Shown here piece by piece: positions 1 through 6,329 of a stretch of 64,000 nt of DNA. The DNA comes from Pseudooceanicola atlanticus. Its GTDB lineage: Bacteria; Pseudomonadota; Alphaproteobacteria; Rhodobacterales; Rhodobacteraceae. The notes under the pieces are model-generated. The model saw nothing but the letters and a program-made list of their open reading frames with translations, did not search any database and was not told the origin of the DNA. Location of the stretch: assembly GCF_000768315.1 (NCBI RefSeq), contig NZ_AQQX01000003.1:1-64000 (forward strand). Reading direction: 5' to 3'. Positions within the stretch are counted from its first letter, which is position 1. The number at the start of each line of letters is the position of its first letter. A program made the translations under genes and the position numbers.

Positions 1-380
1 CATAGGCGGCTGAGAAACAACGCTCTTGTTACAAGAGTGCGCCGGGTCCCATCAGTTAGCCGCCGCGTAGGCGGTAGAGGAGAAAAAGGTGTTTCCGTGT
101 GCAACGGCTCCACCCTATCTCCTTGTCAGGGACCCGGCGTGAGCCGCCGCATAGGCGGCTGAGAAACAACGCTCTTGTTACAAGGGTGCGCCGGGTCCCA
201 CCAGTTAGCCGCCGCGTAGGCGGTAGAGGAGAAAAAGGTGTTTCCGTGTGCAACGGCGCCAACCTATCTCCTTACCAGGGACCCGGTGTGAGCCGCCGCG
301 TAGGCGGCTGAGAAACAACGCTCTTGATACAAGAGTGCGCCGGGTCCCATCAGTTAGCCGCCGAGTAGGCGGTAGAGGGA
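1..380 (+). repeat. 149-bp tandem repeat, about 2.5 copies
   Basis: Position 1 realigns with 150 and 299, giving a period of exactly 149 bp with only scattered substitutions between copies. Each unit contains two hairpin-bearing 28-nt subunits, at 139-166 and 204-231 in the best complete unit. They are separated by alternating 37-nt and 56-nt stretches. The array is cut by the left window edge and ends near 380, where the sequence becomes unique. Short reading frames inside it have no coding character. Confidence 0.95.
1..380 (+). CRISPR. Type I-F-like CRISPR repeats with abnormal spacing
   Basis: The subunits at 139-166 and 288-315, and the partial one at 1-17, are 28 nt long. They read GTGA, stem GCCGCC, loop GCATA or GCGTA, stem GGCGGC, then TGAGAAA. 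This matches the length and layout of type I-F repeats (stem CTGCC, loop GTATA, stem GGCAG, tail CTAAGAAA), which Cas6f cleaves. Degenerate versions sit at 55-82, 204-231 and 353-380. Against a normal array: the intervals are 37 and 56 nt instead of 32, and the 'spacers' are near-identical between units. No cas genes are visible. It may be the tail of an array, an array-derived tandem duplication, or a mobile-element RNA that mimics I-F repeats. Confidence 0.45.
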
Positions 381-577: not shown

Positions 578-859
578 CTATTGCTTCTCTCCGGGCGACG
601 CGGGCAGAGGCTCAAGACCGAGAAACTTCCGATCTGTCGGTCGATTGATGTGTTTGTCGATGAACCGTTCCAACCTCTTGCGATCCTCCGGGCTGGCCTT
701 GGCCATCGCCGCCAGAAACGCACCACCGTGGATGTATTTACGCCGATCGTCTTCCTTGCGCTGACGCTTCTTCTCCTCGCCCTCCGCAGATTTCAAGCGC
801 GCCTGCGCCTGCTCCAGTTTTTCCCTGAGCATCTCTACCCGTTTGCTGCGATCTGTCAT
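578..859 (-). CDS. Small MobC-like mobilization accessory protein
   Basis: This 93-residue protein is very basic and helical, rich in Lys, Arg and Glu. It has a heptad-like N-terminal half (about residues 5-45) and a C-terminal block containing HGGAFLAAMAKASPEDRKRL. Proteins of this size and composition commonly sit divergently next to MobA/MobL relaxase genes and help open oriT. Here the relaxase gene starts 216 bp away on the other strand. I chose the start at 859 because a strong AGGAGG ribosome-binding site precedes it; the frame stays open further upstream without such a site. Function is inferred mainly from context. Confidence 0.6.
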   Translation of the reverse strand: MTDRSKRVEMLREKLEQAQARLKSAEGEEKKRQRKEDDRRKYIHGGAFLAAMAKASPEDRKRLERFIDKHINRPTDRKFLGLEPLPASPGEKQ

Positions 860-1075: not shown

Positions 1076-2314
1076 ATGAAACACTTGCGCCCACATCCAG
1101 CCAGCCATTGCCCACTCCTGGTCATTTCCCGGTCGGACGGACGGTCATCCGTCGCCGCGGCCGCTTACGCCTCTCGGAGCCGGATGACCGATCATCGGAC
1201 TGGTCTGATTTTCAACTATCGCAATGTTCCGGGTCTCCTGCACGAGGGCCTCGTGGGCTGGAAATCCTCTGCCGAGGAACTTTGGAACGCCGCCGAGAAA
1301 TCCGAGGTGCGAAGCAACGCGCGTGTCGCGAGGGAACTGAGGCCGGCCCTGCCCGCTGAGCTGCCGCACAACGAGCAGATCCGTCTGGTTCACGGGTTTG
1401 CGTGCTGGCTGCGAGACTCGTTCGGTGTTGCCGTCCATTATGTGACCCACGCCCCCAGATTCTTCGACGAAGAATGGGGGAAGGCGCTCTGGAAAAACCG
1501 TGGGACGGAGGTCGGCGAACAGGACTATTTTACCGCTCTAAAAGACCCAACAAAGAGCAATATCAACTTTCATGCGCACATCCGGTTCACGACCCGGGAA
1601 GTCGAGCGCGATAGTGGCGTTTTCGGAGAGAAAACGCGTGTGCTCGACGCACGGGACACCGGTGCCGCCTGCGTCCTTCTCATGCGCCAAGAATGGGAAA
1701 ACCGAACAAACGCCGCGCTCAAACGCTGTGGATCATCCGCTCGTATCGACCTGCGTTCCTATGCCGATCAAGCAGCGGCTGGCGACGCGCCGGAAGGGCT
1801 TGAGCCCCAGAGGCACGAGGGACCGAAGACGGCAGCGATCAAAAGAAAACGGCGGCAGGCAAAAGCAGCACCAGCGGGGGCCAGACAACGGGACCGCGCG
1901 ACCGTGCGCTCAAGGAATGAGGCTCTGTGGCAGGCGTGGGATCTGAAGCGCGCAAGGCAACGGGAAGAAGCTCGGAGATCCGGAGAGTCGCAGCATATCG
2001 CGAACAAGCGGGAGGCTGAGCGCCGACAGGAAGCCACGGCTCATGCTGACAGGATCCGTTCGGCCGATACTGATGAAGCAATAAGGGCCGCGGTCGAACA
2101 GTCACACTCCGTCGAGAGCACTCGAGCTGGATGCGGCTGGGCCCAGGCTATCAGCGACGCAATGGCCGGACGCGGTCCCTTCGCCGAAGGTTTCGAGAAC
2201 GACGAAACGATAGATCCCGAGAACTGCAATCTGCCCCATGCTCCGGAACCCGAACCGATCATGCGGCCGGTCGCGGTGAAGCGCCGCTCTCCGCGGCAGC
2301 GCACACGGGGATAG
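1076..2314 (+). CDS. mobA: MobA/MobL-family relaxase
   Basis: The protein nicks and covalently binds oriT to start conjugative transfer of single-stranded DNA. Near the N-terminus (residues 18-31) SRSDGRSSVAAAAY is the family hallmark, with Tyr31 a candidate catalytic tyrosine. NFHAHIRFTT (residues 164-173) supplies the metal-binding HUH pair. The C-terminal half is basic, Arg/Ala-rich and probably coiled. At 412 residues it resembles relaxase-only forms and lacks the primase domain of RSF1010 MobA. No coupling protein or type IV secretion genes are visible, so transfer would need a helper, at least as far as this end of the element shows. The start at 1076 is the first ATG ahead of the conserved block. 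Confidence 0.85.
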   Translation: MKHLRPHPASHCPLLVISRSDGRSSVAAAAYASRSRMTDHRTGLIFNYRNVPGLLHEGLVGWKSSAEELWNAAEKSEVRSNARVARELRPALPAELPHNEQIRLVHGFACWLRDSFGVAVHYVTHAPRFFDEEWGKALWKNRGTEVGEQDYFTALKDPTKSNINFHAHIRFTTREVERDSGVFGEKTRVLDARDTGAACVLLMRQEWENRTNAALKRCGSSARIDLRSYADQAAAGDAPEGLEPQRHEGPKTAAIKRKRRQAKAAPAGARQRDRATVRSRNEALWQAWDLKRARQREEARRSGESQHIANKREAERRQEATAHADRIRSADTDEAIRAAVEQSHSVESTRAGCGWAQAISDAMAGRGPFAEGFENDETIDPENCNLPHAPEPEPIMRPVAVKRRSPRQRTRG

Positions 2315-4122: not shown

Positions 4123-4209
4123 TGCTTTCACATCTACCGGAAACGGAGTGATCAGCGCGTGCAGCTTAACATGGCGTGCATGTCGTATGGTGCTATCGTC
4201 GAGAGAGAT

Positions 4210-4761
4210 ATGTCCGACAACACAGAAAACACTGAAAAAAAGGCTGCTATGTCACACTATGCGGTCATCGACTTCGAAGCCAGCAGCCTTTCGTCTGACA
4301 GCTGGCCGATCGAGATCGGTTTGTCATGGCTCGACGAAGGTCAGGTTAGGACCTGGTCATCTCTTATGCGGCCATCCAGATCATGGAACCTCGATGACTG
4401 GTCTGATGAGAGCGCAGCAGTTCACCGGATCCCCATAGAAATCGTCCACGCTGCGCCATGCGTCGATGTAGTCGCGGCCCGTTTCTTCGAAGTCCTCGGA
4501 ACGCGCCAGTTGGTCTCCGACGCGCCGGTCTTTGAAACACACTGGTTAACGAGAATGACCGAGGCCGCTGACCAGCCGGCCAAAGGACCGGTGCTCGATT
4601 TCCACCGGGTTTCATTCGCGAACTTCAGCGGCCTTGCCCTCGATTTGCTATACGAAACGATCGAGAGAAAGGTTGTGCCGCATCGAGCTGGCCCCGACAG
4701 CGCCCGATTGGTTGCTGGTTGGCGCAGAGCCCTTGCGCATCATGAGGACCACCTCTCGTAG
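4210..4761 (+). CDS. DEDDh-type 3'-5' exonuclease-like protein
   Basis: The DnaQ/RNase T-like fold is indicated by three ordered motifs. ExoI is IDFEASS (Asp and Glu at about residues 21 and 23). An ExoII-like SDAPVFETHWL follows near the middle. ExoIII-like HRAGPDSARL near the C-terminus supplies the His and Asp. Such enzymes remove nucleotides from 3' ends of DNA or RNA. At 183 residues it is close to a minimal domain and lies just before the integrase gene, so it is element cargo. The start is uncertain: ATG 4249 begins five codons before the first catalytic motif and has AAGG upstream, while 4210 gives a short polar extension. Confidence 0.65.
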   Translation: MSDNTENTEKKAAMSHYAVIDFEASSLSSDSWPIEIGLSWLDEGQVRTWSSLMRPSRSWNLDDWSDESAAVHRIPIEIVHAAPCVDVVAARFFEVLGTRQLVSDAPVFETHWLTRMTEAADQPAKGPVLDFHRVSFANFSGLALDLLYETIERKVVPHRAGPDSARLVAGWRRALAHHEDHLS

Positions 4762-4791: not shown

Positions 4792-6123
4792 TCATGCGAG
4801 ATGATCGGGCACCGGCAAGGACAGCTGCTGGGCAATCTCGTGCCGCTTTTCGAGCGTCACATCGTCACCGTAGACCGGCCGCCCCCGGATCTTTTTGATG
4901 CTGTGGCCCATCATGTGGCCCTTCTCCGTTTCGCTCACCCGGAACGCCTCCATCCTGCTCTCCCAGGAATGCCGCAGACCTCCGATCGTGTGCTCTGGCG
5001 AAGGAAAGAGACCACTTGTCCTAAGACGGCCATTCACATTGCCGGAATACCCACCCCTACCGCGATACCTGGGGAACCCATCCGGGTTTCGCCGTGCCGC
5101 CGCCAAGGCGACGCCCACCAATGGCACCTGACGCTTCGACGCATGGTTCTTGATTTCGCGCCGGTGCTCGCCGCCGCTATTCGCGACGAGGATGTGGGGA
5201 ATGGCTGCATCCAGCACGATCGCCTCAGGCGGGAGATCGTGGATTTCAGATTGTCGACACCCAGTCTCAATGGAGATCAGAAGGATGTCCCGCGCTTCGG
5301 CATTGAGATTGTCGAACGCCCCAGGTGCGAACCATTTCTCGACGATCCAGTCGGTCGGAATCTCCAGCTTCCGGTTTTCATCATTGTGCCGATCACGCAG
5401 ACTGACCCTCCGATACGGCTCGGGAGGGTTCGGTCGCGCGATGTTCTCGTAGTAACGCCTAAGCATTCCTGCGAGGTTGGCGAACTCTTTGTTTGCGCTC
5501 TCAATCGCGAGGCCTTCGGCAGCCACCCTGCGCTTCCACCACGCTCGATGCCGTAGCGCGACCGCATGGTCGATATCCTCCACGAGGATGTCGGCACCGT
5601 CCAACGCCGCCCGTAGGTTGCTGGCAGCCCGGATTTTCGCATTGCGCCAGACCCGCATCTGGTTGGGATTTTTGAACCGATTGTCGAATGCAGCAAGCTG
5701 CTCATCAGCAGCCGCGAACTGGGATAGTCGCAGGCCCGTCTGCTCCACGCCGCCAAGCAAGGCCGTCGCGACCTTTGGATCGCTTCCATGCCTTTCCACG
5801 GCGGCGAACCGACCCAACAACTCATCCAGAGGCGCTGTCACGAGATCCGCGACCGGGCGATAGGGAAATCCTTCATTGGCCGCGATATGCGATGCAGCGG
5901 CCAGTTGATCTACGGTGCCTGACATTTCCGGTGTGAGTGCCCGCATCGCTTCAAGATCCTTGAGAATCTGAGCTTCAGCAGCGGGCAGAAGCTCGCGCGC
6001 GCGTCGCTCGCTGTCCGTTCGTAGACTGCGATGAATCTCACTGCGACCGGCGACATCGAGATATCTCCGCGGCACCCGCATCCGGAGATGCCAGATGCCG
6101 TTTCGCTTGTGCAATCCCGCCAT
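4792..6123 (-). CDS. int: Tyrosine recombinase (integrase) with DUF6538-like N-terminus
   Basis: This 443-residue site-specific recombinase would integrate and excise the element at tRNA-Ser. The N-terminus (MAGLHKRNGIWHLRMRVPRR) is of the DUF6538 type common in alphaproteobacterial integrases. A SAM-like DNA-binding region follows, then the catalytic domain: Arg in TGCRQSEI, Lys in ASKRQVPLV, Arg in GGLRHSW, His in MGHSIKK and Tyr in RPVYGDD. The first residue of the usual HxxR box appears to be Gly. The gene reads away from the attachment site, whose tRNA fragment lies about 150 bp upstream of its start. The cargo genes converge on it. Confidence 0.9.
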   Translation of the reverse strand: MAGLHKRNGIWHLRMRVPRRYLDVAGRSEIHRSLRTDSERRARELLPAAEAQILKDLEAMRALTPEMSGTVDQLAAASHIAANEGFPYRPVADLVTAPLDELLGRFAAVERHGSDPKVATALLGGVEQTGLRLSQFAAADEQLAAFDNRFKNPNQMRVWRNAKIRAASNLRAALDGADILVEDIDHAVALRHRAWWKRRVAAEGLAIESANKEFANLAGMLRRYYENIARPNPPEPYRRVSLRDRHNDENRKLEIPTDWIVEKWFAPGAFDNLNAEARDILLISIETGCRQSEIHDLPPEAIVLDAAIPHILVANSGGEHRREIKNHASKRQVPLVGVALAAARRNPDGFPRYRGRGGYSGNVNGRLRTSGLFPSPEHTIGGLRHSWESRMEAFRVSETEKGHMMGHSIKKIRGRPVYGDDVTLEKRHEIAQQLSLPVPDHLA

Positions 6124-6271: not shown

Positions 6272-6294
6272 TTCGAATCCCTGTCTCTCCGCCA
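6272..6294 (+). other. att site: 3' end of a tRNA-Ser gene (fragment)
   Basis: The T-loop TTCGAAT, the 3' T-stem CCCTG, the acceptor strand TCTCTCC and GCCA follow in perfect tRNA spacing. The acceptor strand would pair with GGAGAGA, the typical 5' end of tRNA-Ser. The sequence to its left cannot form the T-stem, D-arm or anticodon arm, so only the 3' 23 nt are present. A truncated tRNA 3' end beside an integrase gene is the classic scar of site-specific integration. The intact gene should lie at the other element end, reading rightwards. Confidence 0.75.
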
Positions 6295-6329
6295 CTTTTC
6301 CTTGATTTCACTGCGAAATCTGGAAAAGT
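6294..6329. other. Stem-loop abutting the attachment site
   Basis: ACTTTTCC pairs with GGAAAAGT, and inside it GATTTC pairs with GAAATC around a 5-nt loop. It begins at the last base of the tRNA fragment. It could be the old terminator of the tRNA gene or a recombination-associated site. The rest of 6330-6525 shows no gene. Confidence 0.45.

Follow-up and report, generated by a model that had tools for sequence, protein, structure and literature searches.

Repeats in a mobile element at the edge of a contig

The first 380 nt of the stretch of Pseudooceanicola atlanticus DNA analyzed here (64,000 nt of contig NZ_AQQX01000003.1, hereafter "the window") carry 28-nt hairpins that resemble type I-F CRISPR repeats but stand at abnormal distances from each other. 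This raises the question of what kind of element displays such hairpins: a CRISPR array, a decoy directed against one, or something else. Tandem Repeats Finder reported an array with a period of 149, 2.5 copies and 94% matches, and in a repeat search of the window the second 149-nt copy was 95% identical to the first. The 149-bp unit comprises, in order, R1 (28 nt), s1 (37 nt), R2 (28 nt) and s2 (56 nt). The features, all on the plus strand, are listed with bit scores against the Rfam model CRISPR-DR4 (RF01317; gathering score 35).

1–378: tandem array with unit R1-s1-R2-s2, cut on its left side by the contig end and continuing at C3:1–78 (minus strand) of the same genome (G000)
1–17: R1 stub at the contig start, last 17 nt only (14.9 bits, 5′-cut)
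55–82: R2, hairpin retained, tail degenerate (15.6 bits)
83–138: s2 arm (other copy at 232–287)
139–166: R1, I-F-like repeat GTGAGCCGCCGCATAGGCGGCTGAGAAA (28.3 bits)
167–203: s1 arm, with its own hairpin CGCTCTTG/CAAGGGTG and then GCGCCGGGTCCC (other copies at 18–54 and 316–352)
204–231: R2, hairpin retained, tail degenerate (15.6 bits)
288–315: R1, second full copy (25.1 bits)
353–380: R2, last copy (no match at E ≤ 10)

The coordinates of the 28-nt subunits and the 37- and 56-nt separators given in an earlier note on this DNA are correct. The three subunits it had called degenerate are those listed as R2, with their low score or, in the last copy, no match. As it had also said, the separators are near-identical between units and the spacing is not that of an I-F array. 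Its 6-bp stem for R1 needs amending: a stem-loop is present, but the stem has 5 bp and can be extended to 7 bp via G5-C21 and A4-U22. The arms offer pairings of their own. GCGCCGGGTCCC in s1 (167–203) has a potential pairing partner in the end of the s2 before it; in s2 (83–138), TCTCCTT pairs with GAGGAGA of the R2 tail, the end pairs with s1, and the inner stems are GGTG/CACC and CCGT/ACGG.

The extension to the left that the earlier note called for leads to nt 1–78 of contig C3. In the relatives G007 and G013 the array joins the C3 piece to the window piece without a gap. Because these two genomes carry both flanks unbroken, the contig break here lies within the array.

We read the array as sitting in an integrated copper-resistance island of ~20 kb plus the array, at tRNA-Ser. 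Genes on the C3 side encode two multicopper oxidases, CusF, a cytochrome c, an outer-membrane efflux protein, DUF305 and MauE/glutaredoxin proteins, and those on the window side include a MobA/MobL relaxase and a DUF6538 protein. The window-side features are as follows.

578–859, minus strand: small island ORF of 93 aa, no family match in profile searches
1076–2314, plus strand: MobA/MobL (MobQ-like) relaxase (PF03389, 1.3e-33; MobQ model below cut-off)
4792–6123, minus strand: probable tyrosine integrase of the island (PF20172, 1.6e-11, N-terminal DUF6538 only)
6272–6299, plus strand: right attachment repeat of 28 bp, identical to the 3′ end of tRNA-Ser(CGA) at C3:14080–14107 (minus strand)

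The DUF6538 protein is probably the integrase of the island, a name that we base on position and sequence, DUF6538 alone being matched. The relaxase and the 28-bp tRNA-Ser attachment repeats bear out the proposal that the array lies inside an integrated mobile element beside a mobilization gene. Among 1399 plasmid records, the Mob protein had only relatives with <60% identity. No copies of the window array were found in the plasmid and phage collections, and none of its flank, or of the G095 array, in plasmids. The island also encodes a DEDDh-type exonuclease at window 4159–4761, based on weak matches (Pfam RNase_T just under the cut-off, and PADLOC).

Related elements occur across Rhodobacterales

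Besides the island, related elements, each with its own s1 and s2, are present at 13 other Rhodobacterales loci, a count that includes two related Thioclava plasmids (83% identity). A DNA search found the array in 3 of the 22 genomes of the genus, at a single locus in each. Among 394 family genomes, six were matched by DNA search; three of the four weak matches were accepted, and the fourth (G156), a single hairpin, was not. A covariance model built from ten elements matched 27 of 388 family genomes at E ≤ 0.01, of which eight were accepted after inspection (G000, G013, G095, G336, G310, G068, G023 and G225). Only three of the eight are independent of the model, because the first five supplied its elements: G068 and G023 (E ~2.5e-6) and G225 (E = 0.0055, accepted by eye). 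Inspection covered 16 of the 22 new model loci (L058–L063 were left out), with three accepted and 13 rejected as coding sequences or single hairpins.

Four of the 13 loci are on plasmids of Sulfitobacter sp. OXR-159, Thioclava nitratireducens, T. electrotropha and Roseovarius indicus, drawn from inspection of 6 of 37 and 1 of 18 matching plasmid records. A mobile context is found for the window and several relatives. Further loci are in Roseicyclus marinus, Cribrihabitans marinus and a Rhodobacteraceae MAG. The Sulfitobacter plasmid array has three hairpins per unit over about 1.4 kb. Two loci with an R1 and no clear R2 (L030, Maritimibacter harenae; L208, a Rhodobacter xanthinilyticus plasmid) stand outside the 13. 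The coding-like L031 and L034 and the single repeat of L028 were left out of the count, and H28, inside a coding gene, was dropped. In L028, a MAG contig, the lone I-F-like repeat (2684–2711, GTTGGCCGCCGCACAGGCGGCTGAGAAG) lies between ribonucleotide reductase and EarP genes.

Most loci have irregular spacing. In the MAG MSM13 (L033), both repeat pairs enclose an s1 of 32 nt, the length seen in genuine I-F arrays; elsewhere s1 ranges from 20 to 84 nt. The genes around the loci differ, with relaxase genes nearby at two (window and G023). Among 37 island and neighbor proteins scanned against Pfam, no family was found at more than two loci (relaxases of two families, MFS transporters). A search for an orthologous empty site in the genus of G336 (2 genomes) matched only the upstream gene in the second genome. 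In a Maritimibacter MAG (L072/L029, 20-kb contig), the element lies between WYL-domain and AAA_25 ATPase genes, perhaps on a plasmid or integrated element.

The earlier note had left room for the 149-bp unit being an ordinary satellite. We disfavor this, because the DNA search found one locus in each genus carrier and the plan recurs elsewhere with new sequence. No description of such arrays in Rhodobacterales was found in the open-access literature, judged by titles and the starts of abstracts among the matches listed.

R1 resembles type I-F CRISPR repeats

The profile search agreed with the earlier proposal that R1 is I-F-like. Its best copy matched CRISPR-DR4 with E = 4.5e-4 (700 nt searched, 4227 families); simple arithmetic gives ~7.5e-4 expected chance matches at that score for this model alone over the 4.94-Mb genome. 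No Rfam family other than CRISPR exceeded its gathering score in the window, L054 or L070. A regular 10-repeat array with a 60-nt period in a Halothiobacillaceae MAG (L036) scored 29.3–30.3 bits against the same model, and the repeats adjoining csy2, csy3 and cas1f on a Pararhizobium plasmid scored 17.5 bits, so that R1 is about as near to CRISPR-DR4 as a regular array and nearer than csy-linked repeats. Although R1 falls below the gathering score, it is not thereby set apart from CRISPR repeats, since regular arrays also score <35. Counted by eye, 25 of 28 positions are identical between the window R1 and the Halothiobacillaceae repeat. Thus the sequence and hairpin of an I-F repeat are found in R1, with R2 reaching only 15.6 bits, and the regular 60-nt period with unique ~32-nt spacers is not found in the window array.

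The Halothiobacillaceae array (L036:4300–5000) lies beside zinc-uptake and HEPN-domain genes. No cas genes were present in ten ORFs scanned within 6.6 kb, and we therefore call this array regular but not cas-linked.

A covariance model from Rhodobacterales elements, run at E ≤ 0.001 on 367 class genomes, matched only the genome of the window and three others (G524, G665 and G666), and the stretches examined from these three hold regularly spaced I-F-type arrays. The same model (labeled "R2"), trained without the plasmid loci, gave 54.9 bits on L206, 48.8 on L209, 46.5 on L205 and ~26 on L211 and L208. Regular arrays scored likewise (64–76 bits on L036 and 37–47 on L210, Pararhizobium gei plasmid p3), so this model cannot tell the elements from I-F arrays.

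In combination, the elements and regular type I-F repeats share a 28-nt repeat, a GCC-rich stem, a GNRYA-type loop, a CTNAGAAR-type tail and comparable bit scores. They differ at repeat positions 3–5, which are mostly NAG in the elements and of TCA/TTG/TAC type in regular I-F arrays. Unlike those arrays, the elements have R1 stems that are mostly extendable to 7 bp, a degenerate R2 that alternates with R1, and separators that range in length from 20 to about 144 nt and have a tendency to fold, and no cas genes were found in the carriers tested.

The tested cas genes are absent from the sampled hosts

The earlier note had reckoned with I-F systems in related hosts, but none turned up in the family sample. 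A profile search detected Csy3 (Cas7f) in 0 of 388 family genomes, and Cas1 was detected in 0 of 9 carrier genomes, carriers known only from contigs or plasmid records being outside this count. Csy3 was chosen for the family search as it is strongly matched on the Pararhizobium plasmid. Cas6f, searched with PF09618, was found in 0 of 22 genomes and, over the whole family sample, in 0 of 388, negatives that carry less weight because a likely Cas6f beside csy3 on the Pararhizobium plasmid escapes this model. PF09618 did detect Cas6f in one of ten genomes (G666). Of the three class genomes with regular arrays, G666 alone yielded Cas6f and Cas1, and the assemblies of the remaining two are incomplete.

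The likely Pararhizobium Cas6f is encoded between csy3 and cas1f (L210:2198–2848, plasmid p3 of P. gei). Neither Pfam nor NCBIfam has a model that matches it, PADLOC gives no more than a weak match to type IV Cas6, and standard models may overlook alphaproteobacterial Cas6f.

The separators behave as structured arms

When compared with mononucleotide shuffles, 8 of 17 s1-type arms are significantly better folded (p < 0.05; Fisher 1.8e-9, with arms of one locus being non-independent); the window's own s1 does not fold significantly (p = 0.20). At the same threshold, 2 of 48 spacers of regular I-F-type arrays (P = 0.18) and 5 of 29 short phage spacers (P = 0.05; set without L110 and L158) fold on themselves.

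We compared pairing within a locus with pairing across loci, taking one unit from each of 14 loci. Own-locus pairing was stronger for the R2 tail with the next 62 nt (P = 5e-5), upstream with the R2 tail (P = 0.0025), upstream with s1 (P = 0.009) and the two halves of s1 (P = 0.009), and a control segment gave P = 0.27. The segments were picked after seeing folds, and the four P values survive correction for four tests, though not necessarily for that choice. For upstream with s1, the own partner was the best in only 2 of the 14 loci (the window and Sulfitobacter), and a shuffled duplex test on 17 units found no general pairing of these segments (Fisher 0.30). Stems between upstream and downstream reached p < 0.05 in 2 of 20 units.

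In the consensus fold of the island, a 10-bp stem between the s2 end and the s1 end encloses R1 and the s1 hairpin. Variable columns among island units comprise 10 of 106 paired and 19 of 71 unpaired positions (P = 0.003), or 9 of 94 and 14 of 55 when the duplicated end is removed (P = 0.017), with the structure taken from the same alignment. Using the fold of one row, the difference was not significant (P = 0.21). R1 and R2 themselves show weak covariation, with 2 both-side changes, a level that was reached in 54 of 500 shuffles. The alternation of hairpins across loci is established, and a single common fold is not. From these folding and pairing signals, s1 and s2 look like structured arms and not like spacers, which speaks against the suggestion that the window holds a decayed CRISPR array.

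A motif, CCYATCTCCTT, occurs in s2 at window 114–124 and 263–273 and also in L022, L027, L030, L033, L205 and L206, either exact or with 1–2 changes and mostly ahead of R1. Its sequence appears to be complementary to ribosome-binding sites, and in the fold of the island units its partner is the tail of R2.

Polarity of the arrays

Around each of the 14 loci, a close pattern of the R hairpin matches a single strand, with 0 matches on the minus strand, giving each locus a single orientation. In a covariance search of both strands, weak minus-strand matches (≤22.8 bits) were confined to the Sulfitobacter array. Most loops read G-N-R-Y-A, with GCGAA and TTTCA also present. The tail CTKAGAAR follows R1 at 13 of the 14 loci, if L067 and L069 are read one base off the printed register; G023 has CTTAGAGG. 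This conservation is partly ascertainment, because the tail was built into the pattern or model by which many of these loci were detected. At one position of R2, G.U is the commonest pair (10 of 13). The polarity, the one-sided tail, the loop and the G.U pair fit RNA.

Terminator-like hairpins with a score ≥35 were found after 6 of 17 loci, compared with 9 of 800 random stretches, which are mostly genic; at a loose threshold the counts were 7 of 17 and 121 of 400. None was found downstream of the window or G007 array, and no promoter-like site was found around the G007 copy.

Comparison with known repeat and RNA systems

RacrIF1 is a solitary type I-F repeat that interacts with Cas6f and Cas7f (PMC10651486). 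Like RacrIF1 as described there, the present array is an I-F repeat mimic on a mobile element without cas genes; unlike it, the array has multiple repeats and structured arms, and no I-F system was found in the hosts sampled. CreA of CreTA (PMC9458426, PMC10097628), with one or two degenerate ectopic repeats, is another point of likeness. CreTA is reported to operate with Cascade in the same cell, whereas cas genes were not found here. In the family genomes and carriers searched, the Csy3 and Cas1 results give no sign of a resident Cascade for which the array could serve as a guide.

A REP-like dispersed repeat was rejected, as a DNA search finds only one array in G000; a loose hairpin pattern gave 54 + 38 matches in that genome and 37 + 31 in the reversed control. 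REP/BIME elements are hairpins amplified in tandem with locus-specific linkers, as is the present array, but the array differs in having a single locus per genus carrier and direct rather than inverted order. CsrB/RsmZ-type sponge RNAs carry many copies of one protein-binding hairpin per RNA, another likeness, and we know of no sequence relation between them and the array.

Viral sequences gave a separate observation. Of 108 IMG/VR stretches with an I-F repeat pattern, 20 hold 2–4 I-F-like repeats separated mostly by 12–26 nt and not by 32 nt, with three separated by 8, 36 or 38 nt and some loci being near-duplicates (L105, L109, L118, L120, L130, L137, L139, L148, L151, L157, L162, L166, L173, L177, L185, L189, L190, L200, L203 and L204). 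A terminator-like hairpin with a score ≥28 lies within 150 nt after 11 of the 20. These loci may be short-spacer relatives of RNA anti-CRISPRs.

What the array may be

The irregular spacing, the pairing arms with changing sequence and the failure to find Cas7f or Cas1 indicate that these are not ordinary CRISPR arrays. With confidence and doubt about equally balanced, we predict that the array gives rise, or gave rise in the past, to a structured non-coding RNA that belongs to the mobile element and displays I-F-like hairpins. Each unit of the predicted RNA would present two hairpins, GCC-rich in the stem and mostly GNRYA in the loop, alternating with the locus-specific stem-loops s1 and s2. 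If the array acts as RNA, an RNA-binding protein could recognize the I-F-like hairpin and be held by its many sites. Tandem growth would raise the number of such sites, and the hairpins gained with each further copy of the unit suggest a function in titration or presentation.

The earlier note proposed an RNA anti-CRISPR, in which the hairpins would bind Cas6f, and possibly Cas7f, of I-F recipients entered by the island or plasmids. The part of this proposal concerning an I-F-like hairpin on an integrated element stands: R1 resembles I-F repeats down to the 8-nt tail, its context is mobile, a type I-F system is present on an alphaproteobacterial plasmid (Pararhizobium), and the interactions reported for RacrIF1 provide a precedent (PMC10651486). 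The target system, in contrast, was not found in the family sample, which weakens the decoy reading. Racrs are reported as solitary units, whereas this is a tandem array; the Racr model has no place for structured arms such as s1 and s2; and a search of IMG/VR with two patterns of the hairpin turned up 0 stretches. We consider such a decoy, the main rival, unlikely. Somewhat less likely still is a DNA-level site, a single-strand hairpin used in replication, transfer or recombination of the element. One array locus per genus carrier, the location of several on plasmids or islands and the relaxase near two loci would suit it, and the cross-locus pairing results suit single-stranded DNA too, but the asymmetric loop, the one-sided tail and the conserved R2 G.U pair suit RNA better, and the flanking genes vary between loci.

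That the array is a remnant of a type I-F array, or that a GC-rich hairpin repeat resembles an I-F repeat by chance, appears very unlikely. The expected number of chance matches to the DR4 model is low but does not make coincidence absurd, and the degenerate R2 and the 32-nt s1 of L033 would agree with a remnant; these readings leave unexplained why s1 has other lengths elsewhere and why one plan with locus-specific pairing arms recurs at many loci where cas genes were not found. We regard as highly improbable a bank of minus-strand terminators insulating the copper operon, formed by the s1 hairpin followed by TTTCTC on that strand. In L020 (6700–7700, both strands) there are 6 terminator-like sites compared with 0.9 in shuffles, two of which are minus-strand s1 hairpins, and the adjacent small ORF points to the copper genes, but the T tracts are short and interrupted and the I-F-like R hairpins would go unexplained.

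A further-reaching reading, to which we give somewhat less than an even chance, is a family of structured RNAs that derive from or mimic CRISPR repeats and that mobile elements have taken up in a bacterial family lacking type I-F systems. Displayed in tandem within folded units, the hairpin would titrate a non-Cas protein or disarm the I-F systems of other hosts on arrival. CRISPR finders would probably skip such elements, given their irregular spacing. They would also escape searches for solitary repeats: in the part of PMC10651486 that describes SRUFinder, repeats within 100 bp are clustered as arrays and disregarded, and tandem repeats ≤100 bp apart would be treated in this way. If the array acts as RNA, it would provide a direct test of roles of CRISPR-repeat hairpins beyond CRISPR immunity, and would show what binds such hairpins where Cas6f is absent.
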